NCBI GenBank assembly: GCA_947168935.1
Contig: CAMVNV010000004.1
Location: 1-58,302 of the forward strand
DNA: 58,302 bases
Direction: 5' to 3'
DNA from: an uncultured Butyrivibrio sp.
GTDB lineage: Bacteria; Bacillota; Clostridia; Lachnospirales; Lachnospiraceae
In this document: piece after piece, positions 20,076-46,636 of the stretch
Layout of the letters: every line of letters begins with the position of its first letter
How positions within the stretch are numbered: position 1 is the first letter of the stretch
Made by a program: the position numbers and the translations under genes
The notes under the pieces: model-generated
Told to the model about the DNA's origin: nothing
Database searches by the model: none
The model's input: the letters and a program-made list of their open reading frames with translations, nothing else

Positions 20076-20102
20076 ATATCGGCATAAATTGCGTAAAACT
20101 CA
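20076..20102 (-). promoter_or_regulatory. Possible sigma-28-type promoter of the EAL-pilD operon
   Basis: On the minus strand GCCGATAT (20083 to 20076) matches the sigma-28 -10 box. Fifteen bases upstream is TGAG, which matches only two of four bases of the TAAA -35 consensus. The predicted transcript would start about 36 bases before the EAL gene ATG. Confidence 0.45.
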
Positions 20103-20153
20103 ATAGATATTGATTAAATATACGAGAAATCCCCAAATTATAATAAAAGTATA

Positions 20154-20193
20154 TAAAAAAGTATACACCAAGTACGCCTTAGTGTATACTTTC
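20154..20193 (-). terminator. Intrinsic terminator after the lexA operon
   Basis: The minus strand has AAAGTATACAC, a 13-base loop, then GTGTATACTTTTTTAT. The stem and T-run fit Rho-independent termination after the small membrane-protein gene. Confidence 0.8.
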
Positions 20194-20271
20194 AGACTAT
20201 TTTCCGTTATATGTAATGTATTATTATCCCGTTTTCTGACTATATATAATGCTTATGAATAACTGTATTCA

Positions 20272-20487
20272 TCAATAATTCAAGTCTTCGGCAAGGTATA
20301 TTCCCTGCTGCGCATAATAGCTGTTAAGACTGTCTCTGCAGGTTTCGATGCTGCTATTGATATGATGAATGCCCAATGACGCAACAAAAAGGTTGCGGAT
20401 CGTGAAAATAAGAAGTGTTAATGTAAGGATCATGATTATACGCATTGCAAGTCTATAAGTTCTTCTTGGTATAAATACATTTCTCAT
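20272..20487 (-). CDS. Small membrane protein downstream of lexA
   Basis: The 71-residue protein has a basic N-terminus (RRTYRLAMR), one strong transmembrane helix (about residues 15-35) and a polar 35-residue tail with one Cys. AGGGG lies 9 bases before the ATG and a terminator follows, so it looks real. It starts 67 bases after lexA and is probably co-transcribed. In Bacillus and relatives the gene beside lexA is yneA, an SOS division inhibitor with one transmembrane segment and a LysM domain; this protein has the membrane segment but no LysM. I recognise no family. An SOS-induced role is inferred from position only. Confidence 0.7.
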   Translation of the reverse strand: MRNVFIPRRTYRLAMRIIMILTLTLLIFTIRNLFVASLGIHHINSSIETCRDSLNSYYAQQGIYLAEDLNY

Positions 20488-20554
20488 AATCTAATACCCC
20501 TCTTTTGGGAGATCTGGTCGCCACCAGCAACTATATCTCAAAAAAACACATGTT

Positions 20555-21169
20555 TCAGGAAAATCTTTTGATCACTGAAGAAAGGACACCTTGAATGATG
20601 ATCTTGTCGGGTATTATGTCGTCGTATCCTCTCTGAATATTCTCTGGATGCAGAACCAGTCTTCCAAGACCGGCGTCATATTTAAGCCTCTTAAGAGTGT
20701 TCTCTCCGTCTTCGTTAAGTGCTACTACTATGTCTCCCTGTCTGGCAGTCTCAGCTTTTCTTATAACAAGGAGGTCTCCGGAATCAATGCCGGCATCTGT
20801 CATGGAATCTCCAACTGCATGTAGTATGAAAAGTTCTCCGGATCCAAACAGCGCTGTTGGGAGCTGTACGTAGCTGTCTATGTCACTACTCTCCGTCTCA
20901 GGTGCTCCGCACGTGATACCATCCTGCATAAGGGGAGCCGAGGTCATATTCTCATCCATCTTCAAGGTGGAGTCTGTACTGATACGACCTTCACTATAAT
21001 CCAGCATTCCCTCTTTGTTCATGGCAACGAGATATCTGTAGGCTGTACTCTTATCTATCGAAAGTCCTCTTCCAATTTCTGCAGTGGAAGGATCACGCAT
21101 ATTGTCTTTATGGAATTTTATGATGAATTCTTTGATCTTCTCTTTTAGTTCAGGACTCTTGGATCTCAT
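20555..21169 (-). CDS. lexA: LexA repressor (SOS regulator, S24 peptidase)
   Basis: Residues 1-65 are a winged helix-turn-helix ([20 protein letters not shown]). Residues 75-204 are the S24 autoprotease with catalytic Ser122 in GDSMTDAG and Lys160 in NTLKRL. The self-cleavage dipeptide appears to be Cys87-Gly88 (GITCGAPE) instead of the usual Ala-Gly; UmuD also uses Cys-Gly. AGGAG lies 8 bases before the ATG. The recognition helix differs from Bacillus LexA, and the promoter lacks a CGAAC-type SOS box but carries a near-perfect palindrome at 21241-21269. Length (204) is normal. Divergent from the MATE gene. Confidence 0.92.
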
Positions 21170-21240
21170 ATCCTTGTCTCCTGTATTCGAGTAATATTGG
21201 CGGCTTCCTGCGCTTTTGATGTCAGGTCATTTTTTTAAAT

Positions 21241-21269
21241 TCTATCTGCAACGACCCGTTGCTGATAGA
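21241..21269. promoter_or_regulatory. Palindromic operator candidate in the lexA promoter
   Basis: TCTATC, then GCAACG, ACC, CGTTGC and GATAGA form a 29-base inverted repeat with a single mismatched pair. It starts just after the lexA -10 region, around the expected transcription start, the classic place for a self-repressor. No T-run follows on either strand, so it is not a terminator. LexA is the obvious candidate binder; this is inference. Confidence 0.6.
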
Positions 21270-21271
21270 AT

Positions 21272-21300
21272 AATAATAACATATTTCCTTATAATGTCAA
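21272..21300 (-). promoter_or_regulatory. Sigma-A promoter of lexA
   Basis: TTGACA lies at 21300-21295 on the minus strand. ATTATT lies 17 bases downstream, or TATTAT at 19. The palindrome at 21241-21269 follows directly. Confidence 0.65.
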
Positions 21301-21315
21301 CATTTTCTTTTAGTA

Positions 21316-21344
21316 TTGAGTTAATATGGGACAACACGTATAAT
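21316..21344 (+). promoter_or_regulatory. Sigma-A promoter of the MATE gene
   Basis: TTGAGT (21316-21321), a 17-base spacer and a consensus TATAAT (21339-21344) point to the MATE gene. Confidence 0.75.
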
Positions 21345-21357
21345 GTTTCTTGCCCCC

Positions 21358-21374
21358 GTTTCCGAAAAGGAAAC
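21358..21374 (+). promoter_or_regulatory. Inverted repeat in the MATE leader
   Basis: GTTTCC-GAAAA-GGAAAC lies about 7 bases after the predicted MATE transcription start. It could be an operator or a small RNA hairpin. No local regulator gene other than lexA is adjacent. Confidence 0.5.
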
Positions 21375-21427
21375 ATGTGACCCATTTAAACTCGTAAACT
21401 TAGCACTAAAAACATAGGGATTTTGAT

Positions 21428-22849: not shown

Positions 22850-22893
22850 TAAAAAGACATCCCGTACCTTGTAACGTATGGGATGTCTTTTTT
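22850..22893 (+). terminator. Terminator between MATE and the histidine kinase
   Basis: AAAAAGACATCCC and GGGATGTCTTTTTT pair across a short loop. A-runs and T-runs on both sides make it likely to work in both directions, for the converging MATE and kinase genes. Confidence 0.88.
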
Positions 22894-22922
22894 ATCTGAA
22901 CTAATTATGATCTGAAATTCTT

Positions 22923-25334
22923 TTATTTGAAATGTCTGACTATCTTATCCTGTGGCAGTAGTTTTAGTAGCAGCTTCTCAAGCTTCTTGGAGTCTACAGG
23001 CTTACTCATGTAAGCTGCAAAGCCTTCATTCAGATACATCTTCTCTGCACCTGGAGTTGCATTTGCGGTAAGGGCAACAACCGGAGTAGCATAGCTCATG
23101 GCCATGTAATTGTTCTTAAGAAGGTGGAGTGTCTGTATTCCATCAGGCTCAGGCATCATATGATCCATGAATATAAGATCATACTTGTTGGTACGTGCCT
23201 TTTCATAAGCCTCATCTCCGCCACCTGCGCTATCTATCTGAATCTGTGTCTCTTTGAGAAGGCCTATGAATACTTCGATATTCATCCTGTTATCATCAAC
23301 AACAAGTACCTTTGCATCCGGAGCATGGAACAGCTCTTTATAGGTTACGTTCTTCTGAGTATACTTTCTGATAGCTTCGTCCAGGTCTCCAATAGGTTCT
23401 TCATTTATTACCTTTTGTGGAATTATTATAGTAAAAGCAGAGCCTTTACCATATTCACTTTCAACCTTGATCTCACCTCCCATAGCATCTACAAGCTTCT
23501 TGGTAATGGAAAGTCCAAGACCTGTTCCTTCTATATGGCGGTTTTCTTTTTCATCAACTCTGTTATAAGAACTGAAGATCTCTCCTATATCTTCAGGCTT
23601 AATTCCAATTCCTGTATCCTTAACTGTGATGCAAAGATTAAATTCTCCGTCAGTATATGTCTTATCTGCAATAAAGGTGACTGTACCTCTGCTTGTATAC
23701 TTGACGGCATTGGACAAAAGGTTTGTAATGATCTGCATCATTCTTACCGGATCACCATACAAAACTGAAGGCAGATCATGGCTTACATTTGTAACAAACT
23801 CAAGTCCGTCCTGTCTTGCTCTTGATATAAGAAGAGTTACGCAGTCTACAAGGAGGGGTGCAAGATTATATTCTTTAATATCCAGCTCGATCTTCTGATT
23901 CTCTGACTTTTCTACATCCAGCATGTCATTGATAAGTGACATGAGCATACGAACTGCATTTCTGATACTGCTGGCATAGGCCTTGATATCCTGATTGCCT
24001 GTCTCTCTTTCTATGAGTTCTGCCATTCCGGATATGGTATTAACAGGAGTCCTTATCCTGTGGGACATAAGTGAAAGGAATTCAGTCTTTCTTTCTCCTG
24101 ATGCCACAGCAATTATCTTCTGGCTATGTGTCCTGACCATACCAAGAACAGCTTCAGCAACAACTGAAACCAAAAGGATAAGCATTCCAATGACATATAT
24201 GAGTGATGATACAGCTCTTATATCTGAATACAGTCTTATAAGCTCGATTATCATCAGCATCATGAAGATAATAAGACCTATTGATACAGCTTTATTATCT
24301 TTGACCCTTCCACTTACGATATCAACTATGGATACAACAAGCACAAGTGCAAGTGCACCCAGGATAACAACAAAGGTATACTTCAAGGTACCTGCAAAAT
24401 AAGCCACATCACTATAATGCAGATATGAAACGACCACTGCGTATACTATACAGAAGTCCTCTGTTACTTTATATATAAGTTTGTATCTTCCGGCGTGAAG
24501 ACAGTCAGCAAATAACAGGAACGGAACAGGTGCAAATACAATGATCTGACATGCAGCCTCAAATAGTCCTGCCAGATCAGAGACCTCGTACTGCATGAAA
24601 GTGTTACTTGTAGGTGTTGAACCAAGCCTCCAAAGACATATGCACTGAATTCCAAGCGCAAGATACAGTACTGTAGAAGGCTTTTTGGTCACAAACAAAA
24701 AGTAAGACGAAATGATAATTGTTATTATTGAAACCGATCCAAGAACAAGGGTAATCATGGACGATCTCATTGTGTTATAAGCATAATAACCCCAGATTCC
24801 GCCCTGAGATCCTATCAGCACTTCTCCAAGCCAGCCTTTGAACATTGATTCTGATTCAACTTCTATCCTGACTTCTTTGCCATTATCTTCCAAGTAGAGT
24901 TTGGCAAAAACGTGTGCAGATGGACTTGTTCTCGAGCCATACCCCGACTCTCCGGGACGAAGGGAATACAAGGCTCTTAGTTCGTCGCCAACGTAGATCC
25001 TAACTATTGCCGTATATCCTGTAACTGCCAGCCAGCTTCCTTCTTCAATTTCATTCGGCAAGGTATTATATATTGTGATCCTGCCATTATCAGTTTCAAC
25101 TTTTGCTGGAAATGTTTCTATTTCAGTGGTTGTTCCATCTTCAAGTTTCTGGACCCAGCCTTCATTAAACTTATAATAGCTGTATTCCTTTTCACCAAAG
25201 TCATTGAATCTTTCCTTCTGACCAAATGCAAGCATGCAAAATACAGATACGACTGCGACAACGCATCCTATCATGATGAACTGATATATACTTGGTCTTT
25301 TTACAGGCTTGCAATCGGGACTGAACATCATCAA
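22923..25334 (-). CDS. Hybrid sensor histidine kinase with receiver domain (paralogue 2)
   Basis: Order: one membrane helix (residues 19-39), an extracytoplasmic beta-rich sensor (about 45-185), a bundle of about seven helices (190-400), HisKA with His425 in FLSLMSHRIRTPVN, HATPase with DTGIGIKPEDIG and GTGLGLSITKKL, and a receiver with Asp724 in LIFMDHMMP. The helix-bundle design resembles 7TMR-type sensors. Its ATG overlaps the stop of the upstream kinase by four bases (ATGA), so the pair is translationally coupled. No DNA-binding domain is present, so output must pass through another protein. It lacks the Hpt domain of its partner. Confidence 0.93.
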   Translation of the reverse strand: MMMFSPDCKPVKRPSIYQFIMIGCVVAVVSVFCMLAFGQKERFNDFGEKEYSYYKFNEGWVQKLEDGTTTEIETFPAKVETDNGRITIYNTLPNEIEEGSWLAVTGYTAIVRIYVGDELRALYSLRPGESGYGSRTSPSAHVFAKLYLEDNGKEVRIEVESESMFKGWLGEVLIGSQGGIWGYYAYNTMRSSMITLVLGSVSIITIIISSYFLFVTKKPSTVLYLALGIQCICLWRLGSTPTSNTFMQYEVSDLAGLFEAACQIIVFAPVPFLLFADCLHAGRYKLIYKVTEDFCIVYAVVVSYLHYSDVAYFAGTLKYTFVVILGALALVLVVSIVDIVSGRVKDNKAVSIGLIIFMMLMIIELIRLYSDIRAVSSLIYVIGMLILLVSVVAEAVLGMVRTHSQKIIAVASGERKTEFLSLMSHRIRTPVNTISGMAELIERETGNQDIKAYASSIRNAVRMLMSLINDMLDVEKSENQKIELDIKEYNLAPLLVDCVTLLISRARQDGLEFVTNVSHDLPSVLYGDPVRMMQIITNLLSNAVKYTSRGTVTFIADKTYTDGEFNLCITVKDTGIGIKPEDIGEIFSSYNRVDEKENRHIEGTGLGLSITKKLVDAMGGEIKVESEYGKGSAFTIIIPQKVINEEPIGDLDEAIRKYTQKNVTYKELFHAPDAKVLVVDDNRMNIEVFIGLLKETQIQIDSAGGGDEAYEKARTNKYDLIFMDHMMPEPDGIQTLHLLKNNYMAMSYATPVVALTANATPGAEKMYLNEGFAAYMSKPVDSKKLEKLLLKLLPQDKIVRHFK

Positions 25335-28300
25335 ACCTCTTCTTTGTTACCAGTTACTGCTTCTATGATCCTTGCACTATCTGCTGCCGCAAGGCCCTTC
25401 TTAATAAGCTTTATCCTCTTTTTATCTTCTTCTGAAAGCTTATATCCCATAAGCTCTCCAAGGATTCCTTCAACGCTGTCATAATCAAGACTCTTAGCAC
25501 ATTCTTCAATTGCAGAGTATGCATCCAAAAGCTCTTCCTCTGATATCTCAGGAAGGTTCTCGTCATCGCTTTCACTATCATTTTCCTTTGCGAAAAGAGC
25601 ATCAAGTTTTGAAAAAGCATCTTTGTACTCATCAAGAAGCTTTGGAACCTTTTCAAAGAATTCTTCCTCTTTGCCCTGATCACCGCATTCTTCAAGATAT
25701 GCTGCGTGTTGTGAAAGCTCCTGAATTCCTATAACTCTTGCATTAGATTTAAGTGCATGGACCTTGATGACACCATTATGAAGATCCTTGTCATCAATTA
25801 TCTTCTGAAGAGTATCTATGTTGTCTTCTGCTGTTTCAACAAAAGTCTTTATTGCATTGATAAAGAGCTCTTTACTTCCACAATTCTTTATTCCACTATC
25901 AGTATTAATCTCTTTGATCTGTCTTATACTCTTAAACAGGTCTTTATAGACATCATTTTCTTCCTGTTCGCCTTCCTGTTCGCCTTCTTGTGGAATCTCC
26001 ATGGCCTTATCTTCAAAGTAGGTCCAGAGAGTTCTTTCAAGTTCGAAGGTCTTAACAGGTTTTGAAAGGTAATTGTCAAAGCCCATCTTCTGATATTCCC
26101 TCTTGGCACCTTCATATTCATTGGCAGTAAGGGCTATTATGACAACCTTTTTATGGACCTTGGCATAATGCTTTCTTATGACTTTCATGGCCTTTTCGCC
26201 GCTCATACCAGGCATCCTGTGATCCATAAATATGATGTCAAAATCTTCTTTTTGAGATATCTCTATAGCTTCCTGGCCGGATGATGAGTTGGTGATAATG
26301 GCACCTGTTCTCTTTAACAGACCGTCTATTACTGAAAGGTTCATAGTGTTATCATCAACGCACAGTACCTTAAGCTTGTCAGAATAAAAACGTCCCTTTT
26401 CGTTAAGGATACTTAAGTCTGGTTCAACAGGCTTGGTCTTCCAGCTTGCTATTTCTTTTTCATTAGCAAGTTTTTGGATTATATCAAAAGAAAACTCAGA
26501 TCCTTTGCCAAGTCTGGATCTAACATTAAGCTTACTTCCCAGAATTTCAAGAAGTCTGTTAATTACAACCAGGGTCATTCCGCTCTGGCCATCTTTTTCT
26601 CCGGTGTTTTCAAATGGATCGAATAATTTTTCCAGATCAGCCGGACTTATTCCAACACCGGTATCTGTGATAACTATGGAGAACATAACAAGTTCATGTC
26701 CTGTATCATCTGTCTGGCCAAAGTTTTCAATATATGCGCCAAGGGTTACCTTGCCTTTTTCTGTATAGGTTATGGCATTATTAAGAATTTCTCCTATCAT
26801 CTTGCAGATCTTTTCATTATCACCAACAAGAAGTCTTTCCTTTATGCCGTGCTCCTTAAGTTCTAACATAAGACCTTTTTTCTCAGCTATTGGTTCAAAT
26901 ATTCTGTACAAGGATGTGATGGCAATTTCAGCGTCGTATGTCTCTTCTATGATGTTGACTTTGCCTGACTCAAGCCTTGAATAGTCAAGGATCTCATTGA
27001 TAAGTCTAAGGAGAGACTTACCATAATCTCTGATCTTCTTGGCATATGACGTTATGGTATCTTCCTGGGATTCACGAAGGATCAGCTCATCCATTCCAAG
27101 GATGGAATTAACGGGGGTTCTGATCTCATGGGACATGCTGGCAATAAACTGGGACTTGGCAGAGGATACCTCTTCTGCAACTACCCTGTCTCTTCTATCC
27201 ACAACATATGTAAGGATCATGTCTATGACGCCGCATATCATGATCAGGATCATTCCAAGATTAACTATAGGAGTTGCCGGGGAATCAGGATTTATTGCAT
27301 ATAATATGCCCGCAATTATGCTTGATAAAGCAAATCCGATATATCCCGAGAATGTGATATGGTTCTCTGTGATGCGCTTTTTATACACATCAATGATAAT
27401 AGTTGCAACCATATAGATAGTGGATATAACTGACACTGCAACCAGATATGGCATTGAAAAAGCAAACGGAAGAATACCTTCGTCGTTAAACCAGGTCGTA
27501 AAGAAGCACCCCGCCGCAACCAAAAGAGCAAAGAGCAGATTGGATTTGTGATATCTCTTATTCTGAAGGTTATCAAGACTATATAAAAAAGGTATTGGGA
27601 TCAGGGAAAAGAGCATGTAGCCGGCATCAGATGCAATGCTGACGTTATAGAAAATGAGCTGTCTTAGATGGGATACGAAAACTTCCCATGACGAATACAA
27701 CAAAACGCCCACTCCGAGGAATACGAACCTTCTGGCACTCTTATTATAAATGCCTACGATAAGTAGAACACCAAGAGCTGCCACAGCTATGATCATAACG
27801 ATAACAGGCAGAACAAATCCTGAATAATCCTTAGTGGCATAGTAATACCATATTCCCATCTGATTACCTATTACCACTTCATTGATGGTATAAGTATAGA
27901 TCTCATTATCTGACGCTCCGACTATCTTGATAGTCTTGCCTATGTCTTCTTTACTAAGCTGGACAAAGAGGTAGAAGCTTGGGACTGTGGTCCTGCCGTA
28001 TTCTTCAAAGTTTCGGTAATAAGCCTTTCTAAGCTCTCCGTCAATATAAATATACATACTCTGGCGGGTACTTCTGATAGAAAGCCAGGAATGCTCGTTA
28101 AGGGTGCGGGGGAGAGTTCTTTCGATCGTGAACTGTTTGCGGCCTGTTTTATTGGCTTTTCCAGGAACTTCAACGGGAACTCTTTCCCCATTTTCAAGGA
28201 CCTGAACCCAGCCTTCAGACAGCACACTATAAGAAAGCTCTTTTTTCACATACTCATTGGTATGGAGGATGTTGCCGGAAAAGAGCTTTATTGCTACAAA

Positions 28301-28357
28301 TAAGAGCACCAGATAGCATAAAATTAATTCAAAACTTATTTTAGCCTCTCGCATCAT
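25331..28357 (-). CDS. Hybrid sensor histidine kinase with receiver and Hpt domains (paralogue 1)
   Basis: It shares the layout of the downstream kinase: a membrane helix, a sensor with SEGWVQVLENGE (the partner has NEGWVQKLEDGT), a seven-helix bundle, HisKA (His410, SMSHEIRTPVN), HATPase (DTGVGISPADLE), receiver (Asp712, IIFMDHRMPG), plus an Hpt domain with His867 in VHALKSN. The HATPase G2 box is weak (SGMTLVVIN where GxGLGL is usual). The ORF is open to an ATG at 28393, but that start has no ribosome site and lies inside a long inverted repeat, upstream of the possible promoter; I prefer ATG 28357. That leaves almost no leader, so the start is uncertain. Confidence 0.88.
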   Translation of the reverse strand: MMREAKISFELILCYLVLLFVAIKLFSGNILHTNEYVKKELSYSVLSEGWVQVLENGERVPVEVPGKANKTGRKQFTIERTLPRTLNEHSWLSIRSTRQSMYIYIDGELRKAYYRNFEEYGRTTVPSFYLFVQLSKEDIGKTIKIVGASDNEIYTYTINEVVIGNQMGIWYYYATKDYSGFVLPVIVMIIAVAALGVLLIVGIYNKSARRFVFLGVGVLLYSSWEVFVSHLRQLIFYNVSIASDAGYMLFSLIPIPFLYSLDNLQNKRYHKSNLLFALLVAAGCFFTTWFNDEGILPFAFSMPYLVAVSVISTIYMVATIIIDVYKKRITENHITFSGYIGFALSSIIAGILYAINPDSPATPIVNLGMILIMICGVIDMILTYVVDRRDRVVAEEVSSAKSQFIASMSHEIRTPVNSILGMDELILRESQEDTITSYAKKIRDYGKSLLRLINEILDYSRLESGKVNIIEETYDAEIAITSLYRIFEPIAEKKGLMLELKEHGIKERLLVGDNEKICKMIGEILNNAITYTEKGKVTLGAYIENFGQTDDTGHELVMFSIVITDTGVGISPADLEKLFDPFENTGEKDGQSGMTLVVINRLLEILGSKLNVRSRLGKGSEFSFDIIQKLANEKEIASWKTKPVEPDLSILNEKGRFYSDKLKVLCVDDNTMNLSVIDGLLKRTGAIITNSSSGQEAIEISQKEDFDIIFMDHRMPGMSGEKAMKVIRKHYAKVHKKVVIIALTANEYEGAKREYQKMGFDNYLSKPVKTFELERTLWTYFEDKAMEIPQEGEQEGEQEENDVYKDLFKSIRQIKEINTDSGIKNCGSKELFINAIKTFVETAEDNIDTLQKIIDDKDLHNGVIKVHALKSNARVIGIQELSQHAAYLEECGDQGKEEEFFEKVPKLLDEYKDAFSKLDALFAKENDSESDDENLPEISEEELLDAYSAIEECAKSLDYDSVEGILGELMGYKLSEEDKKRIKLIKKGLAAADSARIIEAVTGNKEEV

Positions 28358-28367
28358 ATCGAAAAAT

Positions 28368-28395
28368 ATATCGGCTAAAACGGACCAGGTCATTA
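28368..28395 (-). promoter_or_regulatory. Possible sigma-28-type promoter of the kinase pair
   Basis: On the minus strand TAAT, 16 bases, then GCCGATAT (28375 to 28368). Spacing is one base longer than optimal. Transcription would begin close to the ATG at 28357, implying a leaderless or nearly leaderless mRNA. Confidence 0.4.
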
Positions 28396-28619
28396 TAGTT
28401 TTTGGGGATGTTGAAGATGTTGAGGACTGGGGACTGGCAGAATATAATCATAAGCCTCAATTAAAATAACCCGGAGTTTTCTAAGTGTCTTATCCGCTTA
28501 CGTAAACACGCTGTACTCACGCTTCTAAGACACTAAGAAAACTCCGGATCATTTTAAAATCGGCTTATGATTATATTCTGCCAGTCTCCCTGTCCAACAA
28601 CCTTCTAAAAAACTATAAT
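28392..28619. repeat. Long imperfect inverted repeat 1 (228 bases)
   Basis: Outer 12-base ends are ATTATAGTTTTT (28392) and its complement (28608-28619). Inside are a 25-base perfect arm (28432-28455 with 28562-28586) and a 22-base arm with one mismatch (28471-28492 with 28526-28547), around a loop of about 33 bases. It fills the gap between the radical-SAM-like gene and the kinase start. No coding sense. It could be a small mobile element or a very long mRNA hairpin. Confidence 0.85.
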
Positions 28620-28663
28620 AATCTGGGTCTTTGTCCTGTTTTGAGGTGATTATTTGCACAAAA

Positions 28664-29407
28664 TTAGTTGTCGTGGCCTACGGTGTGATCGTTGGTCTCG
28701 TCCCATTCGTCGAAGATGTCTACTCTGGAACTGGTAATGAGGTCATGGTAGAAATCTGAGTTATAAAAGGCTTTGATCTGGTCGTTGTCGCGGGCTGGGC
28801 CGCTGGGGATTGAGGTATAGATGCTAAGATTAATGCGGTCGAAATGAGCTAAAGCTATTTCGAAATCCTTCTTAAGCTGGTCAAAGGTCTGACCTTCCAT
28901 TCCGTACATGAGGTTTATCCAGGAGAAGTATTTGCTTATGTCTTCAGGGGTAGCTCCTGGTAAACCCTTTCTTAAGATATCTTCTCTCAGGTGTTCATCG
29001 AAGGTTTCTATTCCGCATCTATAGATTACTTTTATTCCGTACTGTTCAAAGAACTCTGTGTAATATTTATTAGATTCTCTAAAGAGGTAGTGACCTTCTA
29101 AGATTACAGTCTCTATTCCCTTATCTTTGCAGGTCTGTCTTATGTAGTTCATGGTTGTAAAGGGAAGTTCTGTATATGAGGCTGAGCAGGTTATGTCGAG
29201 CACAGTTGAACCTATCTCCTTACCTCTTACGCTTTCCAAGACTTTTTTATTAACAGCGTCGCACTTAAGGACTGAAGAAGACTTATCATCCTGATAGTCG
29301 CAGAAGGCGCACTTGCCCCAGGAACAGCCAAGGGATACGAGGAGGACTGTTTCTCTTTTGAGGGCGCTTTTATTATCGAATTGGTATCTTATAAGATCGT
29401 GTATCAT
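28664..29407 (-). CDS. Radical-SAM-like protein with CX4CX2C cluster motif
   Basis: Residues 23-38 read LVSLGCSWGKCAFCDY, so three cysteines (28, 33, 36) are arranged CX4CX2C rather than the canonical CX3CX2C. The protein continues with a TIM-barrel-like pattern: ITCSASYTELPF, VILEGHYLF, YRCGIETFDEHLR (a radical-SAM-type GIES/GIET strand) and GMEGQTFDQLKKDF. A 4Fe-4S cluster binding S-adenosylmethionine is likely. At 247 residues there is little room for an auxiliary domain. AGAGGA precedes the ATG. The substrate is unknown and no neighbour hints at one. Confidence 0.7.
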   Translation of the reverse strand: MIHDLIRYQFDNKSALKRETVLLVSLGCSWGKCAFCDYQDDKSSSVLKCDAVNKKVLESVRGKEIGSTVLDITCSASYTELPFTTMNYIRQTCKDKGIETVILEGHYLFRESNKYYTEFFEQYGIKVIYRCGIETFDEHLREDILRKGLPGATPEDISKYFSWINLMYGMEGQTFDQLKKDFEIALAHFDRINLSIYTSIPSGPARDNDQIKAFYNSDFYHDLITSSRVDIFDEWDETNDHTVGHDN

Positions 29408-37453: not shown

Positions 37454-37479
37454 ACCGTGTCTCCTTTCATAATCAGCGA

Positions 37480-37502
37480 CATAATGAACTTTCGTCATTA
37501 TG
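37480..37502. promoter_or_regulatory. Inverted repeat upstream of the surface-protein gene
   Basis: CATAATGA, 7 bases, TCATTATG: perfect 8-base arms between the PilZ stop and the surface-protein ribosome site. It may be an operator or a leader hairpin. Confidence 0.5.
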
Positions 37503-37536: not shown

Positions 37537-37848
37537 TTACGTTGTTATATGTTCAAACAAGTACTGGAGGACTTCCTGTGTGAATTTCCTGGCTGTGAAG
37601 GCTATGAGTTTTTGGTCATTATCAGCAGGATCTTCTCTTACAGCGTCCGCATACATGATGAGGGTTTCTGCTACTATGATCACGCTTTGTCCAAGTAGTG
37701 AAGGAGTATCTTTAGGAACACATATCGCTATACCAAGGGGAGAGATGTTTTTAGTTGTTCCTACGAACTTTTCAGCTGAATCCGGAAGAACTATTACACT
37801 TTTACTCTGATAATCTACTCTGTTTAGCTGCCTGCGCTCTTTTATCAT
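37537..37848 (-). CDS. PilZ-domain c-di-GMP receptor
   Basis: The 103-residue protein has the two PilZ signatures: RQLNR (RxxxR) at the start and NISPLG (NxSxxG) about 28 residues later, followed by a beta-barrel pattern. PilZ proteins bind c-di-GMP and switch partners in motility, exopolysaccharide or pilus function. AAGGAGG lies 9 bases before the ATG. It is a stand-alone domain upstream of the surface-protein gene and may be co-transcribed with it. Together with the EAL and GGDEF proteins of this window it completes a c-di-GMP circuit. Confidence 0.8.
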   Translation of the reverse strand: MIKERRQLNRVDYQSKSVIVLPDSAEKFVGTTKNISPLGIAICVPKDTPSLLGQSVIIVAETLIMYADAVREDPADNDQKLIAFTARKFTQEVLQYLFEHITT

Positions 37849-37969: not shown

Positions 37970-38262
37970 CCGCCAACCCACAAAATCATGGGGGTATCGC
38001 TGGAAGATTTCTGAGGGGCGGCAGTTTATAAAGGATATGCGTGTCATAAAAGAATTTCTAACTTCAAGGCATGATAGCTGGATTTTAAAATTCCGGGATT
38101 CAAACTCGCTTCGCTCAAACAGGTGAATCCCAAACAGAATTTTAAATTCCATCTATCAAGCTCTTGAAGTTTAGAAATTCTTTTAAAGACACGCATATCC
38201 TTTATAAACTGCCGCCCCTCAGGAATCTTCAAGGGATAGTTATCTTTTTTATGTGGGAAGGC
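37970..38262. repeat. Long imperfect inverted repeat 2 (about 290 bases)
   Basis: This fills most of the 449-base gap between the PilZ gene and the small secreted protein gene. Arms around 38003-38058 and 38176-38232 share CTGAGGGGCGGCAGTTTATA and further matches. Inner arms continue to an apical stem GGGATTCA (38095-38102)/TGAATCCC (38124-38131) over a loop containing CTCGCTTCGCTC. Outer ends CCCACA/TGTGGG extend it. ORFs inside look like chance. Confidence 0.85.
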
Positions 38263-38713: not shown

Positions 38714-39202
38714 TTACTCAGTAGTCTTAACAGCACCGTTCTGCATATATGCGCCGAATGTATCTGCTGGACCATATGTTACATTAAGGCTTCCCTTTTC
38801 ATATTTAAATTCAATAGTATAGCTTTCCCAAGCAGATGTGCTCTTACACTTGATATCTGCAGGATCATCATATCCAGCTACCTTAAGAGCTTCTTTGATT
38901 GTATCATCTGCTTCAAATCCAGTAGATTTAACGGTAATTGTTCCGCCATTATATCCAGCAACTTTATCTGTATAAGCAGGATCTGCAAGATATGTCTGAA
39001 CAGCTGAAACAATGCTTGTAGCATTAGAAGCGTCTGTTGAATTTCTTGATCTCTCTACATACTGTAAGAACTGAGGTGCAAGTACAGCTACGAGAATAGC
39101 CATAATAGCGATTACGATAATAAGCTCAACAAGTGAAAATCCTTTGTTATCTTCCTGATTTTCTTCTGCGTTGTTTCTGTAATTACGAAGGAACTTGATC
39201 AT
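38714..39202 (-). CDS. pilA: Major type IV pilin
   Basis: The 162-residue prepilin has leader NAEENQEDNKG and cleavage after Gly21, followed by FSLVELIIVIAIMAILVAVLA with Glu5. The helix continues as APQFLQYVERSRNSTDASN, very like Gram-positive and GspG-type major pilins. The ectodomain is small, with the only mature Cys (in IKCKS) unpaired. GGAG lies 8 bases before the ATG. It has its own strong promoter, a leader of about 200 bases and a terminator, which fits a subunit made in large excess over the assembly machine. Processed by PilD. Confidence 0.92.
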   Translation of the reverse strand: MIKFLRNYRNNAEENQEDNKGFSLVELIIVIAIMAILVAVLAPQFLQYVERSRNSTDASNATSIVSAVQTYLADPAYTDKVAGYNGGTITVKSTGFEADDTIKEALKVAGYDDPADIKCKSTSAWESYTIEFKYEKGSLNVTYGPADTFGAYMQNGAVKTTE

Positions 39203-39405: not shown

Positions 39406-39434
39406 ATATTATTACCTCCCTTCTGTTTTGTCAA
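39406..39434 (-). promoter_or_regulatory. Strong sigma-A promoter of pilA
   Basis: TTGACA (39434-39429), exactly 17 bases, TAATAT (39411-39406) on the minus strand. The best promoter match in the window. Confidence 0.85.
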
Positions 39435-39509
39435 TACTATTTTTTGGAAACTTTTAAATGTTATTTAGTTTACTTTTTAAAACCTACATTTTACGCATGT
39501 TTTGAGCCA

Positions 39510-40721
39510 TTATAAGTTGTCCAGAGACTGATACATGGTAACCATCGGGGACATTACAGCCGCTATCAAAAAACCGACAATTCCGGCCAGAACGATTATG
39601 ATCATGGGTTCCATGGCTGCCATAAGGGCAGCAGTTGCAGATTCTACTTCCTGGTCATAATACTCTGCCAGCTTTTCAAGCATTTCATCCGTAGAACCGG
39701 ACTCTTCACCTATTCTGATCATGTGATACATCATAGGCGGGAACATCTTGGTATTTTCAAGGGCCAGGGACATTGGCTGACCTGCGATTACTTCGTCCTT
39801 GGTCTCGGTAAGAGCGTTCTTATAAAGGACGTTGTCCATGGTCTTAGCTGTTATCTCAAGTGAATCTACTATAGAAACACCTGATGCAAAGAGGGTGGAC
39901 ATGGTTCTTGAAAGGTTGGAGCAGGCTTTTTTCTGAGTCAGGTCTCCTACTATAGGAAGTTTCATCTGCAGTCTTCCAAGAGTAAGCTGACCAACAGGGG
40001 TTGAACTAAACCACTTAAATAAGATGATGGCAGCCACAGCTACAGCCAGTATCAGGTACCACTTGGCTATTACAAAATCACTCATCCGCACAACGAGCTT
40101 TGTGATAGCAGGAAGCTCTGTTCCCAGCTGATCAAACATATCTGTATAGGAAGGAATAACTACAACCAGCATTACGCCTACAACTGCGATTGCTACTAAC
40201 AAAACAATGATCGGGTAGACCATGGCCTTTTTGACCATGTCTTCGACCATGGCAGTTTTTTCTAGCTGAATAGCCATTCTTTCAAATGCCATATCAAGGT
40301 TACCGGAAGCTTCACCGGAGCCTACTGTTGTAATAAGAAGATTCGGGAATATCTTCTTATGTTTTTCCATTGAAGAGGTAAGGGTCTCACCCTTTTCAAT
40401 ATCTGTTACTATCTCTTTGATAGCACTTGCCAGAACTTTATTTTCGGTCTGTTCGGAAAGGAGCTGCATGTTCTGAATAATGGGAACGCCGGCTTTGGAT
40501 ATACTTACGAACTGACGGCAGAACATAGCAAGTTCCTTGGTCTTGACTCCGCCAAGCTCAAAGTTTAAATCTCTTGTAAGGAGATTCTGACTTTCAACTT
40601 TAACCGGGGTCAGGCCCTTGATCTTAAGTTCTCTTATGACAAATTCACGGCTGTCGCCGTCCATACTGCCCCTGATCTGCTTACCGGAAGGATCAAAAGC
40701 AACATATCCAAATGAAGCCAT
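39510..40721 (-). CDS. pilC: Type IV pilus platform protein PilC
   Basis: The GspF/PilC inner-membrane platform couples the PilB motor to pilin insertion. I chose ATG 40721 (AAAGGA upstream); the longer ORF begins inside a hairpin array. The protein of 403 residues opens with the family motif MASFGYVAFDPSGKQIRGSM, then two homologous halves with the GEASGNLD and GEESGSTDEM motifs, and three long membrane helices. It ends LAGIVGFLIAAVMSPMVTMYQSLDNL, the typical C-terminus. It follows pilB by 133 bases, a gap filled with three hairpins, and lies 307 bases before pilA. Confidence 0.95.
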   Translation of the reverse strand: MASFGYVAFDPSGKQIRGSMDGDSREFVIRELKIKGLTPVKVESQNLLTRDLNFELGGVKTKELAMFCRQFVSISKAGVPIIQNMQLLSEQTENKVLASAIKEIVTDIEKGETLTSSMEKHKKIFPNLLITTVGSGEASGNLDMAFERMAIQLEKTAMVEDMVKKAMVYPIIVLLVAIAVVGVMLVVVIPSYTDMFDQLGTELPAITKLVVRMSDFVIAKWYLILAVAVAAIILFKWFSSTPVGQLTLGRLQMKLPIVGDLTQKKACSNLSRTMSTLFASGVSIVDSLEITAKTMDNVLYKNALTETKDEVIAGQPMSLALENTKMFPPMMYHMIRIGEESGSTDEMLEKLAEYYDQEVESATAALMAAMEPMIIIVLAGIVGFLIAAVMSPMVTMYQSLDNL

Positions 40722-40752
40722 GGCTGTCCTTTCTTCATTTTCTAATTTGTAG

Positions 40753-40853
40753 ACATGAAGCATCTTGATGCTTTCATGTTCACTAATCCCGGACATAAAG
40801 CATTTTAATGCTTTATGTCCAGCGATAGGAAGTGCCTTGGCATTTCCTATCGC
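40753..40853 (-). repeat. Three consecutive hairpins between pilB and pilC
   Basis: Hairpin A 40753-40779 (ACATGAA GCATC/GATGC TTTCATGT), B 40791-40820 (perfect 14-base arms, GGACATAAAGCATT and complement), C 40822-40853 (GCGATAGGAA and complement, wobble inside). C abuts the pilB stop. A and B look like diverged copies. No T-run follows, so they are unlikely to be plain terminators. Confidence 0.85.
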
Positions 40854-40854
40854 C

Positions 40855-42546
40855 TTATTCTTCGTAGGAAACCTTCTTCATCTCATCTACTGTAGATATG
40901 CCTTCAAGAACATATTTAGTGGCACTCATTCTAAGAGTCTTCATTCCCTCTTTTAGCGCCTGGTTCTTGATCTCATCAGCGGTTCCTTTTCTTTCTATAA
41001 TAAGCTTAAGGTCATGAGTAACTTCCATGATCTCGTATACACCCGTTCGTCCGGCAAAGCCGGTATTAGCGCACTTAGGGCATCCCACCTTTTTGTAGAG
41101 GGTAAGCGGCTCATTTTCAGGGACTCCAAGAAGCCTCTTTTCCTCAGGAGAAGCTTCATAAGCCTGCTTACAGTCCGGGCAAAGGCGTCGTATAAGTCTC
41201 TGCGCTATGATGCCTACTACAGAATCTGCTATAAGATAGGCTTCAAGGCCCATGTCTTCAAGTCTTGTTACGGTGCTGGCTGCAGAGTTGGTATGAAGAG
41301 TTGATACAACAAGGTGACCTGTGATAGATGCCTGTACCGCGATTGATGCTGTCTCCTGGTCTCTTATCTCACCGATCATGATGATATCAGGGTCCTGACG
41401 AAGGATAGACCTAAGGGCTGATGCAAAGGACAGCTCTGCCTTAGGGTTAACCTGAACCTGATTTATACCATTAATATTGGCTTCGACAGGATCTTCAACC
41501 GTTACGATATTAACGTCTTCTCTGTTGAGCTCTGACAGTGCCGTGTAAAGGGTCGTCGATTTACCGGATCCTGTAGGTCCTGTAACAAGGAGGATTCCGT
41601 TAGGATTGGATATGATCCTGTCAAAAACAGCCATCTCTTCAGGACGAAGACCCAGCTGATCCTTACTTCTATTAAGGGCGGACTTGGATGCAAGTCTCAT
41701 AACGACTTTTTCGCCATAAACCGTAGGAAGTGTAGATACACGGATATCGTACTCAAGCTTATCTACGATCTGGGTCATACGACCGTCCAGAGGTTTTCTC
41801 TTTTCAGAGATATCCATTCCGCTGACGATCTTGATACGTGTAACTATGGCACCAAGAAGGTTATTGTTATAAACAGCTCTTTCGTACAGGGCGCCGTCAA
41901 TTCTGAACCTTATGCGAAGATTCCTTGCGCCTGGCTCAATGTGAATATCAGAAGCGCGCTGACGAACAGCAGATTCAATCATGGTCGTAACGAGCTGTAC
42001 GATAGGAGAATTGGTAACCTCGGCCGTTTCCTGGGCTGATTCTTCCTGAACGTGGGTCCTTTCTCTTGCATACTGCTCTGCTGCATCCTTGAGATCTGTA
42101 TTGCCATAATACTTATCAAGGGCCAGCATGATACTCTGGGATGTGGACAGAACCGGCTCAATGGACAGATTGGTAACGATACCGATATCATCGATCGCTA
42201 CCGTATCCATAGGGTCTGACATTGCCAGATGCAGTGTATTGGGCGCACCGGGCTTATATTCAAATGGTAATACCTTGTGTTTTCTCAGAATCTGGGCCGG
42301 TACCATGTTCAGAATATCATCAGGGATCTCGATAACCTGAAGATTGACGATACCAAGTCCAAGCTGACGGCTTAGTGCTGTAGCAAGCTGTTCACCTGTA
42401 ACAAATCCGTTCTCAACAAGCAGCTCACCAAGACGCTTACCACTACTTTTTTGAAGTGCAAGCGCTTCGTCAAGTTTTTCCTGTGTTATGAAGTTTTCAT
42501 TTAAAAGACATTCGCCGATCCTGATACGTTTTCTAGTGAAGGCCAT
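40855..42546 (-). CDS. pilB: Type IV pilus assembly ATPase PilB
   Basis: The GspE/PilB hexameric motor drives pilus extension. Residues 1-150 are the N-terminal MshEN-like domain with repeated GELLVENGFVTGEQLATALS and DPMDTVAIDDI; in other bacteria such domains bind c-di-GMP. The C-terminal ATPase has Walker A GPTGSGKST, an Asp box (TVEDPVE), Walker B (DPDIIMIGEIRD), a His box (STLHTN) and the zinc tetracysteine CPDC and CPKC. Length 563 is normal. No retraction ATPase PilT is in the window. A sigma-28-like promoter lies 72 bases upstream. Confidence 0.96.
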   Translation of the reverse strand: MAFTRKRIRIGECLLNENFITQEKLDEALALQKSSGKRLGELLVENGFVTGEQLATALSRQLGLGIVNLQVIEIPDDILNMVPAQILRKHKVLPFEYKPGAPNTLHLAMSDPMDTVAIDDIGIVTNLSIEPVLSTSQSIMLALDKYYGNTDLKDAAEQYARERTHVQEESAQETAEVTNSPIVQLVTTMIESAVRQRASDIHIEPGARNLRIRFRIDGALYERAVYNNNLLGAIVTRIKIVSGMDISEKRKPLDGRMTQIVDKLEYDIRVSTLPTVYGEKVVMRLASKSALNRSKDQLGLRPEEMAVFDRIISNPNGILLVTGPTGSGKSTTLYTALSELNREDVNIVTVEDPVEANINGINQVQVNPKAELSFASALRSILRQDPDIIMIGEIRDQETASIAVQASITGHLVVSTLHTNSAASTVTRLEDMGLEAYLIADSVVGIIAQRLIRRLCPDCKQAYEASPEEKRLLGVPENEPLTLYKKVGCPKCANTGFAGRTGVYEIMEVTHDLKLIIERKGTADEIKNQALKEGMKTLRMSATKYVLEGISTVDEMKKVSYEE

Positions 42547-42617
42547 TACTTAGTCCATCCTCCGTGCCAAGTGGCAGGTTTATTAACGTATTTTTGATAG
42601 AAAAAACTCCAATATGT

Positions 42618-42644
42618 ATATCGGCAACCTCTGCTGTATTCTTA
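42618..42644 (-). promoter_or_regulatory. Sigma-28-type promoter of pilB
   Basis: TAAG (42644-42641), exactly 15 bases, GCCGATAT (42625-42618) on the minus strand; consensus is TAAA-N15-GCCGATAA. One of the two best matches in the window. Confidence 0.65.
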
Positions 42645-42654
42645 AACACTTGCA

Positions 42655-42702
42655 ACAAAAAAAGAGCCAGAAAAAATGATCTTACATTTTTTCACAGCTC
42701 TT
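42655..42702 (-). terminator. Terminator of the 97-residue protein gene
   Basis: On the minus strand AAGAGC and AAAAAATG pair with CATTTTTT and GCTCTT, followed by TTTTTTTG. It separates this gene from the pilB promoter just downstream. Confidence 0.85.
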
Positions 42703-42720
42703 ATAAACGCTTTAGGTCTT

Positions 42721-43014: not shown

Positions 43015-43282
43015 ATGCCCTCCTGCCGTATTACGGTCATAGCGTATTTATTTAGCCACAATCAAACGATAATCAGTTAATTATCAATCTTTATTATAAC
43101 CTATTATCGGTATTTTGGAAACTTTTCGTAAGTTTATTTGCGTATTTATCTGGGATGAGGGCTTGTTTATCTATGTATCAGCCAGTAAGTATATGGAATT
43201 TTAGCTCTTATTGTCGAAACATGAGTTTAAAAATGATAAACTAAATTCAAGGGTTTTATTATTTTAATTGTTGGGGACATTG

Positions 43283-43315
43283 GTCTTATATCACTGCGCT
43301 TTTCGCGCTTAAGAC
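43283..43315 (+). promoter_or_regulatory. Hairpin next to the K+ channel ribosome site
   Basis: GTCTTA..GCGC-TTTTC-GCGC..TAAGAC folds with an inner and an outer stem and ends one base before the AGAGG site of the channel gene. The remaining 270 bases of the gap to 43015 are AT-rich and hold weak divergent promoters (minus-strand TATAAT near 43098); nothing else is seen. Confidence 0.45.
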
Positions 43316-43327
43316 AAGAGGTTTAGT

Positions 43328-44533: not shown

Positions 44534-44551
44534 ACATATCCTTATATAAAT

Positions 44552-44579
44552 CGTCCACAACTTGTGGACGATTTTTTTA
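44552..44579 (+). terminator. Terminator of the K+ channel gene
   Basis: CGTCCACAA and TTGTGGACG pair across one base, then ATTTTTTTA. Confidence 0.9.
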
Positions 44580-44663
44580 TGAAAGAAACAAAAATACATT
44601 GTAATTCGTTACTTTATCTGCTATCATTATTTTCGGTTCAAAAAACGATCTGGCCACTTTCTG

Positions 44664-44694
44664 TAGCCAAACAACTTCGAACCATCGTTGGCTA
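44664..44694 (+). repeat. Inverted repeat in the leader of the Rpn-family gene
   Basis: TAGCCAA, CAAC, an inner loop, GTTG and GGCTA pair with one bulge, about 70 bases before the ATG. It may be an mRNA hairpin or a remnant of a mobile-element end. Confidence 0.45.
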
Positions 44695-44764
44695 ATCGCC
44701 AATTATTTCCTACAGCAGCTTGCAAGCATTGTAGAACAAACGAAAGGAAACACTATTATATTTT

Positions 44765-45685
44765 ATGTCAATTGAAAATAAGAACTACAAGGACACCGTC
44801 TTCAGGATGCTGTTCAATAATAAAGTTCGCCTTCTTGAACTTTACAACGCCATCAATGGTACTTCTTACCATAATCCTGACGATCTCACTATAACCACCT
44901 TAAACGGAGAGACTTTTCTTAAGATGAAAAATGATCTTTCATTTATCATCAACTTTGAACTAAATCTCTTTGAACACCAATCAACTCCATGTCCAAATAT
45001 TCCTTTAAGGGATTTATACTATTTGGCGGCTAATCTTAAAGAGTTATATCCTACAGAAAAGATCTATAGCCCCACAAAATTAAAAATACCTACTCCAAAA
45101 TTTATCATGTTTTATAACGGTACATCCCTGATGGAAGATGTAGAAACATACCGCCTATCAGATATGTTTGCCCGCCAAGTAGAATCACCCGCAGTTGAAC
45201 TTATTGTAACTGCTCTCAACGTCAATAGCGGCCACAATAAAGAGCTTATGGAAGCCTGCGAAACTCTAAAAGGTTATTCCCTTTTTGTTGCAAAAGTGCG
45301 ACAATATAAGCAAGAAGCAGAGAAGGATTACGACTCATCACATGCTACTCCTCTTAAGCTTCTAGTTGATTCCAAAGAAGTTATGACTGGAATTGTTTCA
45401 TCCTCCGTAAATAAGGCAATTGATGAATGTATACAAGAGGGCATTCTTAAGGATTTCTTCAGTGAATATAGAAAGGAGATAATAGAAGTGGGTGTACTCG
45501 AATACTCTTATGAGCGACATATGCAGATTCTTCAGGATGAAAGCTTCGATGCAGGCGTTCAAAATACCACAGCTTTATTCTCCTGGCTAAAATCTGTGGG
45601 CCGTAAGGAAGATATTTTCAAAGCCATTGATGATCCGGAATATCTGTCTAAATTATTTATCGAATACAATAATAAAAAAATATAA
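44765..45685 (+). CDS. Rpn/PD-(D/E)XK nuclease-family transposase-like protein
   Basis: The 306-residue protein starts YKDTVFRMLFNNKVRLLELYNAI, the typical beginning of the PDDEXK_2 family. KNDLSFIINFELNLFEHQST carries the Asp and the ExQ active site pattern, followed by NIPLRDLYYLA. The C-terminal half is helical (AIDECIQEGILKDFF). Rpn proteins promote RecA-independent recombination in E. coli, and the family is abundant in Lachnospiraceae. The ribosome site GAAAGGA is unusually far (about 16 bases) from the ATG. Flanked by terminators on both sides; no inverted-repeat element ends seen. Confidence 0.85.
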   Translation: MSIENKNYKDTVFRMLFNNKVRLLELYNAINGTSYHNPDDLTITTLNGETFLKMKNDLSFIINFELNLFEHQSTPCPNIPLRDLYYLAANLKELYPTEKIYSPTKLKIPTPKFIMFYNGTSLMEDVETYRLSDMFARQVESPAVELIVTALNVNSGHNKELMEACETLKGYSLFVAKVRQYKQEAEKDYDSSHATPLKLLVDSKEVMTGIVSSSVNKAIDECIQEGILKDFFSEYRKEIIEVGVLEYSYERHMQILQDESFDAGVQNTTALFSWLKSVGRKEDIFKAIDDPEYLSKLFIEYNNKKI

Positions 45686-45688
45686 CGC

Positions 45689-45722
45689 AACAGGGGCTGT
45701 CCTAAGACCGCCCCTGTTTTTA
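45689..45722 (+). terminator. Terminator of the Rpn-family gene
   Basis: AACAGGGGC pairs with GCCCCTGTT, followed by TTTA. It lies between the converging Rpn-family and DUF6033-like genes. Confidence 0.85.
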
Positions 45723-45723
45723 C

Positions 45724-46512
45724 TCATACGTTAAAATCAAAGTTTTGACCAACCATCTTTTCTTCTTCGGTCATGACGCTGTTGCTTCTAAAAAGCATTA
45801 CCTGATCTGTGATCTTCTTAAGAAGCTCATCTGCGGTATTGGCTGTTACGGTCACGTACTCGCCATCATCATCGGGAAGCTTCTCAGCTTCTTTTGCTTT
45901 TTCTTTCTTCTCAGCCCGCTTTTCTTCAAGCTTCTTCTCCTGGGCTTTCTTTTCTTCTTTTTTCTCTGCAGCTTTTTTCTCAATACGAGCTTTCTGAGCT
46001 TTTGAAGAATCTTTTAATACTGCAAAGAGTGTTGCTGTTCCGTCGTCGTTGATCTTCATGCCGTAGCCCTGAACATCAGCTCCTGTTCCGAACAAGCCGC
46101 TTCCTACTGCTTTGAGCTGAGCTTCTGCGTTTGTAATGATCGCTTCAACTTTGCCCGCATACTTCTCGTCACCTGCCATCTTCTCGATCTTTTCATCATC
46201 GATAAGAACAACTGTCTTATTGGCCTGGCCGTAAGCTGCTGCATTAGCTTCTACCTTATCCTTCTGATCTGCGGCAACAAGGACAAAATCCATTCCGGGA
46301 TATTTAGCTTTCAGCTTCTCATAGTACTTGGCAGCTTTTTCACTGAGCTTAACATCACCAACAGTTCTGCCTGAAATCTTAGAAGCAGACTTTGTTTCAG
46401 TGGGCGCAGCTTTATTTGTTGCATCTTCTTTTTTTACGGATTTATTGTATGACGAAGTATCATACATAGACTGAGCAGCGGTGATCCGCGCGATATCATT
46501 TGATAATGCCAT
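45724..46512 (-). CDS. DUF6033-like protein
   Basis: The 262-residue soluble protein has a Ser/Lys-rich N-terminus (MALSNDIARITAAQSMYD), a conserved-looking core (VKLSEKAAKYYEKLKAKYPGMDFVLVAADQ; then VVLIDDEKIEKMA, VQGYGMKINDDGTATLFAVL), a 45-residue Lys/Glu helix (KKEEKKAQEKKLEEKRAEKKEK) and a short acidic tail. It resembles proteins annotated DUF6033 in Lachnospiraceae; function unknown. AAAGGAG lies 6 bases before the ATG. A close sigma-28-type promoter suggests a motility-linked role. It follows ribU but a terminator separates them. Confidence 0.75.
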   Translation of the reverse strand: MALSNDIARITAAQSMYDTSSYNKSVKKEDATNKAAPTETKSASKISGRTVGDVKLSEKAAKYYEKLKAKYPGMDFVLVAADQKDKVEANAAAYGQANKTVVLIDDEKIEKMAGDEKYAGKVEAIITNAEAQLKAVGSGLFGTGADVQGYGMKINDDGTATLFAVLKDSSKAQKARIEKKAAEKKEEKKAQEKKLEEKRAEKKEKAKEAEKLPDDDGEYVTVTANTADELLKKITDQVMLFRSNSVMTEEEKMVGQNFDFNV

Positions 46513-46536
46513 ATCAGACTCCTTTCCGAATGTATG

Positions 46537-46560
46537 TAGAAATACATCCTTGTATTTCTA
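46537..46560. promoter_or_regulatory. Perfect palindrome in the DUF6033-like leader
   Basis: TAGAAATACA-TCCT-TGTATTTCTA, 10-base arms, about 25 bases before the ATG and 50 after the promoter. Confidence 0.6.
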
Positions 46561-46609
46561 AGCGAATATTCGTGCAACTACCTACAAAAACTAGACTATC
46601 TCAGATTGT

Positions 46610-46636
46610 ATATCGGCTTATTGCTTCAAATGATTA
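46610..46636 (-). promoter_or_regulatory. Sigma-28-type promoter of the DUF6033-like gene
   Basis: TAAT (46636-46633), exactly 15 bases, GCCGATAT (46617-46610) on the minus strand. Confidence 0.65.

Follow-up and report, generated by a model that had tools for sequence, protein, structure and literature searches.

The window considered here, the whole 58,302-nucleotide (nt) stretch of an uncultured Butyrivibrio sp. (contig CAMVNV010000004.1 of GenBank assembly GCA_947168935.1), was found to carry the octamer GCCGATAT upstream of two operons for type IV pilus assembly and of a gene for a DUF6033 protein. A first-pass annotation had placed the octamer in promoter position before four genes, which holds for the EAL gene, pilB and the DUF6033 gene and not for a kinase gene, where the copy at 28368 lies within the open reading frame (ORF). 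Three of the four octamers are probably -10 boxes of the flagellar sigma factor SigD (FliA), such that the pilus assembly operons and DUF6033 would be made alongside flagellin and chemotaxis proteins; the probability of this reading is put at about 0.74. As judged from sequence, it is likely that the flagellar sigma factor switches on pili together with flagella. The elements concerned are listed below, with promoter scores from the two-box matrix described further on.

6507..17174, minus strand: pilM and minor pilin/pseudopilin genes (PilM_2, two N_methyl proteins), in the same operon as EAL-pilD
17250..18008, minus strand: pilD prepilin peptidase (A24_N_bact 114 bits, Peptidase_A24 63.9 bits)
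18081..20030, minus strand: protein with a C-terminal EAL domain (cyclic diguanylate, c-di-GMP, phosphodiesterase; EAL 176 bits)
20076..20103, minus strand: predicted SigD promoter heading the EAL-pilD-pilM-minor pilin operon (TTGAG-N15-GCCGATAT), score 16.5
20140..20205, minus strand: terminator-like hairpin ahead of the EAL promoter (-20.9 kcal/mol, z -5.28)
39510..40796, minus strand: pilC (T2SSF 205 bits)
40855..42546, minus strand: pilB, the assembly ATPase, whose N-terminal domain is MshEN-type, of the c-di-GMP-binding family (T2SSE 458.6 bits, MshEN 59.7 bits)
42618..42645, minus strand: predicted SigD promoter of pilB-pilC, TTAAG-N15-GCCGATAT, 71 nt before the pilB start, score 21.1
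42648..42712, minus strand: terminator-like hairpin with a U-run, directly ahead of the pilB promoter (-19.5 kcal/mol, z -3.96)
45724..46512, minus strand: DUF6033 gene, protein end VGQNFDFNV (PF19498 250 bits, cut-off 25)
46610..46637, minus strand: predicted SigD promoter before DUF6033 (TTAAT-N15-GCCGATAT, 97 nt to the start codon), score 18.5
46676..46732, minus strand: terminator-like hairpin ahead of the DUF6033 promoter (-28 kcal/mol, z -7.84)

In B. subtilis, SigD recognises TAAA-N15-GCCGATAT. The -10 element (MCGATAW or GCCGATAW) is perfect at 20076, 42618 and 46610, and a -35 element containing TAA was found 14-16 nt away before pilB (TTAAG) and DUF6033 (TTAAT), the EAL element TTGAG having one mismatch; none was found at the kinase site 28368 or at 54044. 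The -35 elements of the window are TTAA-like, the same as in the flagellin promoters of the genus, and the literal pattern TAAA-N13..17-GCCGATA has no match within the window (18 in the genome, 8 for the reversed pattern). The EAL octamer lies 45 nt before its start codon. All three accepted promoters come after a terminator-like hairpin with a U-run, and at pilB and EAL consensus scans disclosed no sigma-A-like promoter in the DNA that separates the hairpin from the gene. The genome encodes FliA/SigD (259 bits, cut-off 189.6) and seven flagellin-domain genes.

Enrichment was determined in a sample of the source genome, a 3.5 Mb draft (3.515 Mb, 201 contigs, 81% complete) in which the window is contig C4. 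The sample consisted of the window and 40 stretches (731,742 bases, 607 genes called, 452 upstream regions), these being large contigs or contigs matching a flagellin, a sigma factor or TAAA-N13..17-GCCGATA. Across the 452 upstream regions CCGATAT ranked first of 630 same-composition 7-mers (24 sense copies against a mean of 3.2; 10 antisense), and GCCGATAT first of its 2520 permutations, with 12 copies, the window's own four counted in, against a mean of 0.55 (5 antisense). As assigned by Pfam, CCGATAW precedes, among others, three flagellins, FlgM, FlaG, Mbl, YjfB and a methyl-accepting chemotaxis protein (MCP); a CheY-like gene and a flagellar rod-type gene, both named by eye, also follow it, and matrix-scored forms of the motif precede three MCPs. 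The motif anticipated before flagellar genes was thus found there, and many other genes downstream of CCGATAW sites have no evident motility link. Since the motif is enriched upstream and precedes flagellar genes, SigD is a good reading of the sites at pilB, EAL-pilD and DUF6033.

A two-box (-35/-10) matrix was built from 14 flagellin promoters, 3 from the genome itself and 11 from relatives, in whose flagellin loci (28 examined) the form GGGTTAAG-N14-NMCGATAW recurs, and was run on both strands of the sample. At a score of at least 16 it returned 14 promoter-position sites, while 5 in 1.29 Mb of coding strand correspond to 0.32 expected by area. The pilB site came first: at 21.1 it outscored all other sampled sites in promoter position, those of flagellins among them; DUF6033, one of eight sites at 18 or above, and EAL-pilD were also among the 14. 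The remaining 11 comprise four plain motility genes (two flagellins, which are training members, an MCP and FlaG), a DUF6240 gene ending directly before a flagellin gene, and an unnamed 217-aa gene, PAP2, a glycosyltransferase, DUF5722, HDOD and a response regulator. That both pilus operon heads fall within 14 of 452 regions has a hypergeometric probability of 9e-4, calculated after the sites were seen. The DUF6240 gene (G000:C30:26441-29443, box 16.5) brings a second uncharacterised family, after DUF6033, into the predicted regulon. SigD-type boxes were also observed at a GGDEF/EAL gene (G000:C15:26276-27958, 14.5) and a GGDEF gene (G000:C3:2871-3959, 14.1), and c-di-GMP turnover may therefore be SigD-linked at more than one locus.

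Within the window GCCGATAT occurs six times, at 12259(+), 20076(-), 28368(-), 42618(-), 46610(-) and 54044(+), against a mean of 1.11 in shuffled DNA, and none of 100 shuffles reached six; the octamer is therefore commoner than in shuffled sequence, as the annotation required. GCCGATAW was found 12 times in the window, with 3.4 expected at the genome rate (205 in 3.515 Mb). Genome-wide, the 205 copies compare with 139 of the reversed pattern; thus most copies are background and position decides. Two of the six octamers lie apart from the accepted promoters and the kinase gene, the second being the further promoter-position copy without a -35 match that had already been noticed:

12259..12266, plus strand: GCCGATAT antisense within gene 10435-12810 of the pilus operon, score 7.3, likely chance
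54044..54051, plus strand: GCCGATAT 29 nt before a DUF2971 gene, score 10.9, -35 CTATG, weak

The pilus set identified by Pfam includes PilB, PilC, PilD, PilM and N-methylated pilins. PilB scored 71.7 bits with NF053729, a c-di-GMP-binding family (cut-off 38), and 603.2 bits with TIGR02538 (type IV-A PilB), which is under the cut-off of 675.65 and is still its best-scoring model. In the second operon the EAL gene is first and the ORFs are separated by 11-75 nt. The genes pilB, pilC, pilA, pilD and pilM are consecutive in 9 of 17 loci examined in other Lachnospiraceae; here, unlike that order, the EAL gene stands ahead of pilD, and about 18.7 kb with kinases, a GGDEF protein and a PilZ-like gene lie between pilA and the EAL gene. 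A SigD box would thus stand before each half of a cluster that was apparently once undivided. The PilZ-like protein between the two halves (37537-37848) is just below the Pfam cut-off and is adjoined by an 885-aa protein with a weak SMC model match (34841-37498); a long imperfect inverted repeat, seen by eye, occupies 38000-38250 between the PilZ-like and a zinc-ribbon-like gene. No c-di-GMP riboswitch was detected in the window at the Rfam gathering score.

As first proposed, a single SigD regulon would have included the kinase pair and every pilus gene, which is now very improbable. The features that bear on this are:

22923..28393, minus strand: hybrid sensor kinase pair (HisKA, HATPase_c, Response_reg, Hpt), outside the predicted regulon
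38714..39202, minus strand: pilA-like pilin gene (N_methyl), behind pilC
39406..39434, minus strand: sigma-A-like promoter before pilA, TTGACA-N17-TAATAT, 10/12 positions, by consensus match alone

The octamer at 28368..28375 (minus strand) is a perfect -10 element, and a kinase start at 28357 would give a nearly leaderless mRNA; no ribosome-binding site was seen before either candidate start. However, the ORF starts at ATG 28393, so that the octamer encodes Ala-Asp-Ile, and the site scores 12.9 with ATAAT, not a TTAA-type element, as its best -35; it was therefore rejected as promoter of the pair. The N-terminus read from 28393 has, by eye, 61 residues to the GWVQ shared with the similar neighbouring kinase, nearly the 59 of that protein. 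The motility-sigma regulon is thus retained for pilB, the EAL-pilD operon and DUF6033, and the kinase pair, whose octamer lies within its ORF and lacks a -35, is removed from it. Nor does it extend to the whole pilus: pilA has its own sigma-A-like promoter, and pilT is not within the cluster, the pilT-like gene found on another contig (C175) having no CCGATAW within the 5 kb read. Between the kinase pair and the gene at 28664 a further long imperfect inverted repeat was noted by eye (28440-28630), which may represent a terminator or else a small mobile element. It is likewise highly improbable that the octamer is not a sigma -10 box at all and instead serves some other regulator, for instance a c-di-GMP-responsive one, as a site of activation or repression, since it is accompanied before flagellins, FlgM and an MCP by a -35 element at a distance that hardly varies, and agrees with the consensus that PMC3720852 gives for flagellar promoters of B. 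fibrisolvens.

The main alternative, which we regard as rather unlikely, is that a functional SigD promoter exists at DUF6033 only, the pilB and EAL octamers being chance and the pilus operons depending on sigma-A or read-through. Its strength comes from the comparison of relatives, in which 350 nt upstream were scored at 30 loci for each of DUF6033, pilB and EAL, drawn from 61 genomes with matches in 35, 60 and 50, respectively; the pilB and EAL homologs compared are mostly 41-55% (PilB) and 26-40% (EAL) identical and do not represent the same cluster. The DUF6033 box recurs at a score of at least 14 in 16 of 30 loci, own included (antisense 0/30), whereas pilB and EAL reached this score in 1/30 each, the own copy in both cases. 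The best of the 29 other pilB loci gave 9.9, and two of the 29 other EAL loci gave 13.6. In 79 further pilB loci with sufficient upstream DNA (80 found) CCGATA is not enriched (6 sense, of which 5 CCGATAW, and 7 antisense), and among 20 pilus clusters scanned over a longer range, of which 17 are from the same genus and several are truncated at contig ends, a box above 13.6 was found in genome G020 alone. Set against this, the pilB site outscores the flagellins themselves, about 0.3 sites of 16 or more would be expected in all sampled upstream DNA and both pilus heads have one, and terminator-like hairpins precede both the pilB and EAL octamers.

Other observations also weigh against SigD control at all three sites. 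Six matches scoring 16 or above lay antisense in upstream regions, where some represent divergent promoters, and one match in coding DNA scored 20 or more. The training promoters were chosen by eye, and flagellin loci without a visible box were left out. Because sample contigs were selected in part for motif or flagellin matches, the motif count in the 732 kb sample is possibly inflated, an effect that does not touch the upstream-versus-coding comparison. The EAL promoter has, besides its -35 mismatch, a spacer one base longer than in 11 of the 14 training promoters. For DUF6033, 7 of the 16 boxes share the flank of an upstream ORF 3' end, which was seen in L101, L104 and L109 and deduced by flank likeness in L108, L113 and L119, while in L106 the upstream ORF is broken; the site in L112 reads as coding and was dropped. 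The strict count, without flank-sharing and coding sites, is 8/30 for DUF6033, own included, against 1 for pilB and 1 for EAL.

The pilB and EAL boxes do not recur in the relatives examined, and the pilus link therefore appears sporadic and lineage-specific, not ancestral. The only convincing case in the 79 further pilB loci is L237, with TAAA-N16-GCCGATAA before pilB, under 14.5 on the matrix; TTAAG-N15-GCCGATAT before pilB in L258 was rejected as an in-frame IKGAQEKADIVV in a small same-strand ORF. A stronger independent case is G020, of the same genus, in which TTAAG-N14-TCCGATAT lies 67 nt before pilA with a score of 19.7. Near pil-like genes in 92 loci there were eight sites of at least 14.5, five of them deep in coding DNA; two, in L299 and L303, lead to starts inside genes, and L194 alone was accepted. 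The pattern suggests that pilus genes have been drawn into the flagellar regulon more than once, as pilB and EAL-pilD here and as pilA in G020.

With SigD acting at the three accepted sites, these would be read after completion of the hook-basal body and exit of FlgM from the cell, when FliA freed from FlgM would transcribe the operons together with the late flagellar genes. SigD RNA polymerase would transcribe pilB-pilC and, from the second promoter, the EAL-pilD-pilM-minor pilin operon over about 13.5 kb to 6507. Transcripts of pilA would come from the sigma-A-like promoter in front of that gene, to which read-through from pilC may or may not add. The EAL protein would bring c-di-GMP down and PilB would sense it via its MshEN-type domain; we therefore propose that pili are built in motile cells and that their use is set by c-di-GMP.

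The DUF6033 protein of the window has 90% identity to a protein of Butyrivibrio fibrisolvens DSM 3071 and 2537 relatives by sequence; no paper naming DUF6033 turned up in the literature search. Its AlphaFold model has a mean pLDDT (predicted local distance difference test) of 57, and Foldseek gave no meaningful match in the PDB (best E 1.1). A profile search against PDB sequences found proteasome Rpn8 chains only (E 5e-4, residues 143-214), a likeness that was taken as a charged-coil match. Close to the gene, a flavin mononucleotide (FMN) riboswitch (47694-47811, 107 bits) precedes an energy-coupling factor (ECF) transporter gene (46757-47524).

DUF6033 ends in a C-terminal tail, G-x-x-[FI]-D-x-x-[VI]-COOH, that is common to YjfB (PF14070) and three more families and was spotted post hoc. 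The ends read VGQNFDFNV in DUF6033 (45724-45750) and VGSSFDASV in YjfB (L335, G000:C1:47013-47039). The two proteins belong to different Pfam families, PF19498 and PF14070, and have the tail and upstream SigD-type boxes in common, the boxes being weaker for YjfB (own copy 9.3; at least 14 in 2/20 loci and at least 12 in 8/20). The strict tail occurs in 2 of the 607 sampled genes, and slightly wider patterns in 18/20 YjfB loci and in 107/120 among the DUF6033 relatives listed. Searched as a coded pattern, it has 7 matches in the whole genome against 3 for a reversed control; three of the seven are in frame at a stop codon, namely YjfB, DUF6033 and a gene on contig C109 (L350, G000:C109:1627-1653), third in a gene run headed by TTAAC-N15-TCCGATAT (score 17.6). 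In 14 more genomes 68 matches compare with 55 in the control, and most are therefore chance. From these, 13 recurring-looking regions were chosen by eye, and 11 have an in-frame ORF with a start; they form the C109 family and two others (L379, L380, L385; L383, L384, L390), the latter adjoining DUF6033 in three genomes. A box of at least 16 was found within 2.6 kb upstream in 3/6 C109-family loci and 0/6 loci of the two other families, so that tail and SigD box are not always together. Tentatively, and with more doubt than confidence, DUF6033 may belong to an undescribed class of the Butyrivibrio flagellar regulon with a C-terminal address tag common to YjfB and three apparently unrelated families, a tag that would hand them to a common partner in the flagellar machine, the same sigma factor building type IV pili in this lineage.

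The arrangement resembles the sigma-28 (SigD/FliA) flagellar regulon in its -10 MCGATA(A/T), its TAA-type -35 and its flagellin and chemotaxis targets; the sigma-28 flagellin promoter of B. fibrisolvens is given in PMC3720852 with -35 TAAA and -10 MCGATAa. It differs in that type IV pilus assembly operons and DUF6033 are among the targets predicted here and that the -35 is mostly TTAAG. In Bdellovibrio, according to PMC5430801, the operon of a type IVb (tight adherence, TAD) pilus is under FliA, as tested with an E. coli reporter, whereas pilA is listed there as one of the genes outside FliA control. The two cases have in common that the flagellar sigma factor drives a pilus operon, which is predicted here from sequence; in contrast to the TAD pili of that predator, the present pilus is of PilB/PilM/PilD type and belongs to a member of the Lachnospiraceae. 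In Clostridioides difficile c-di-GMP raises pilA1 via a riboswitch and lowers flagellar genes (PMC6200980), so that pili, flagella and c-di-GMP are linked in a clostridial organism there as well, whereas the wiring predicted here sets pili and flagella on the same side. No paper on control of type IV pili by SigD or a flagellar sigma factor in Lachnospiraceae or Firmicutes was found in a search that was not exhaustive; in a likewise non-exhaustive search on type IV pili of B. fibrisolvens, none was on a SigD link by its title or the start of its abstract.

If the reading of the three sites as SigD promoters is true, one sigma factor would commit a Butyrivibrio-like cell to swimming and type IV pilus building at once, in contrast to the C. 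difficile scheme of PMC6200980, in which c-di-GMP favours pili at the expense of flagella. For DUF6033 the recurring SigD box would then be a first functional lead, and the common C-terminal tail makes a possible partner searchable by pull-down.

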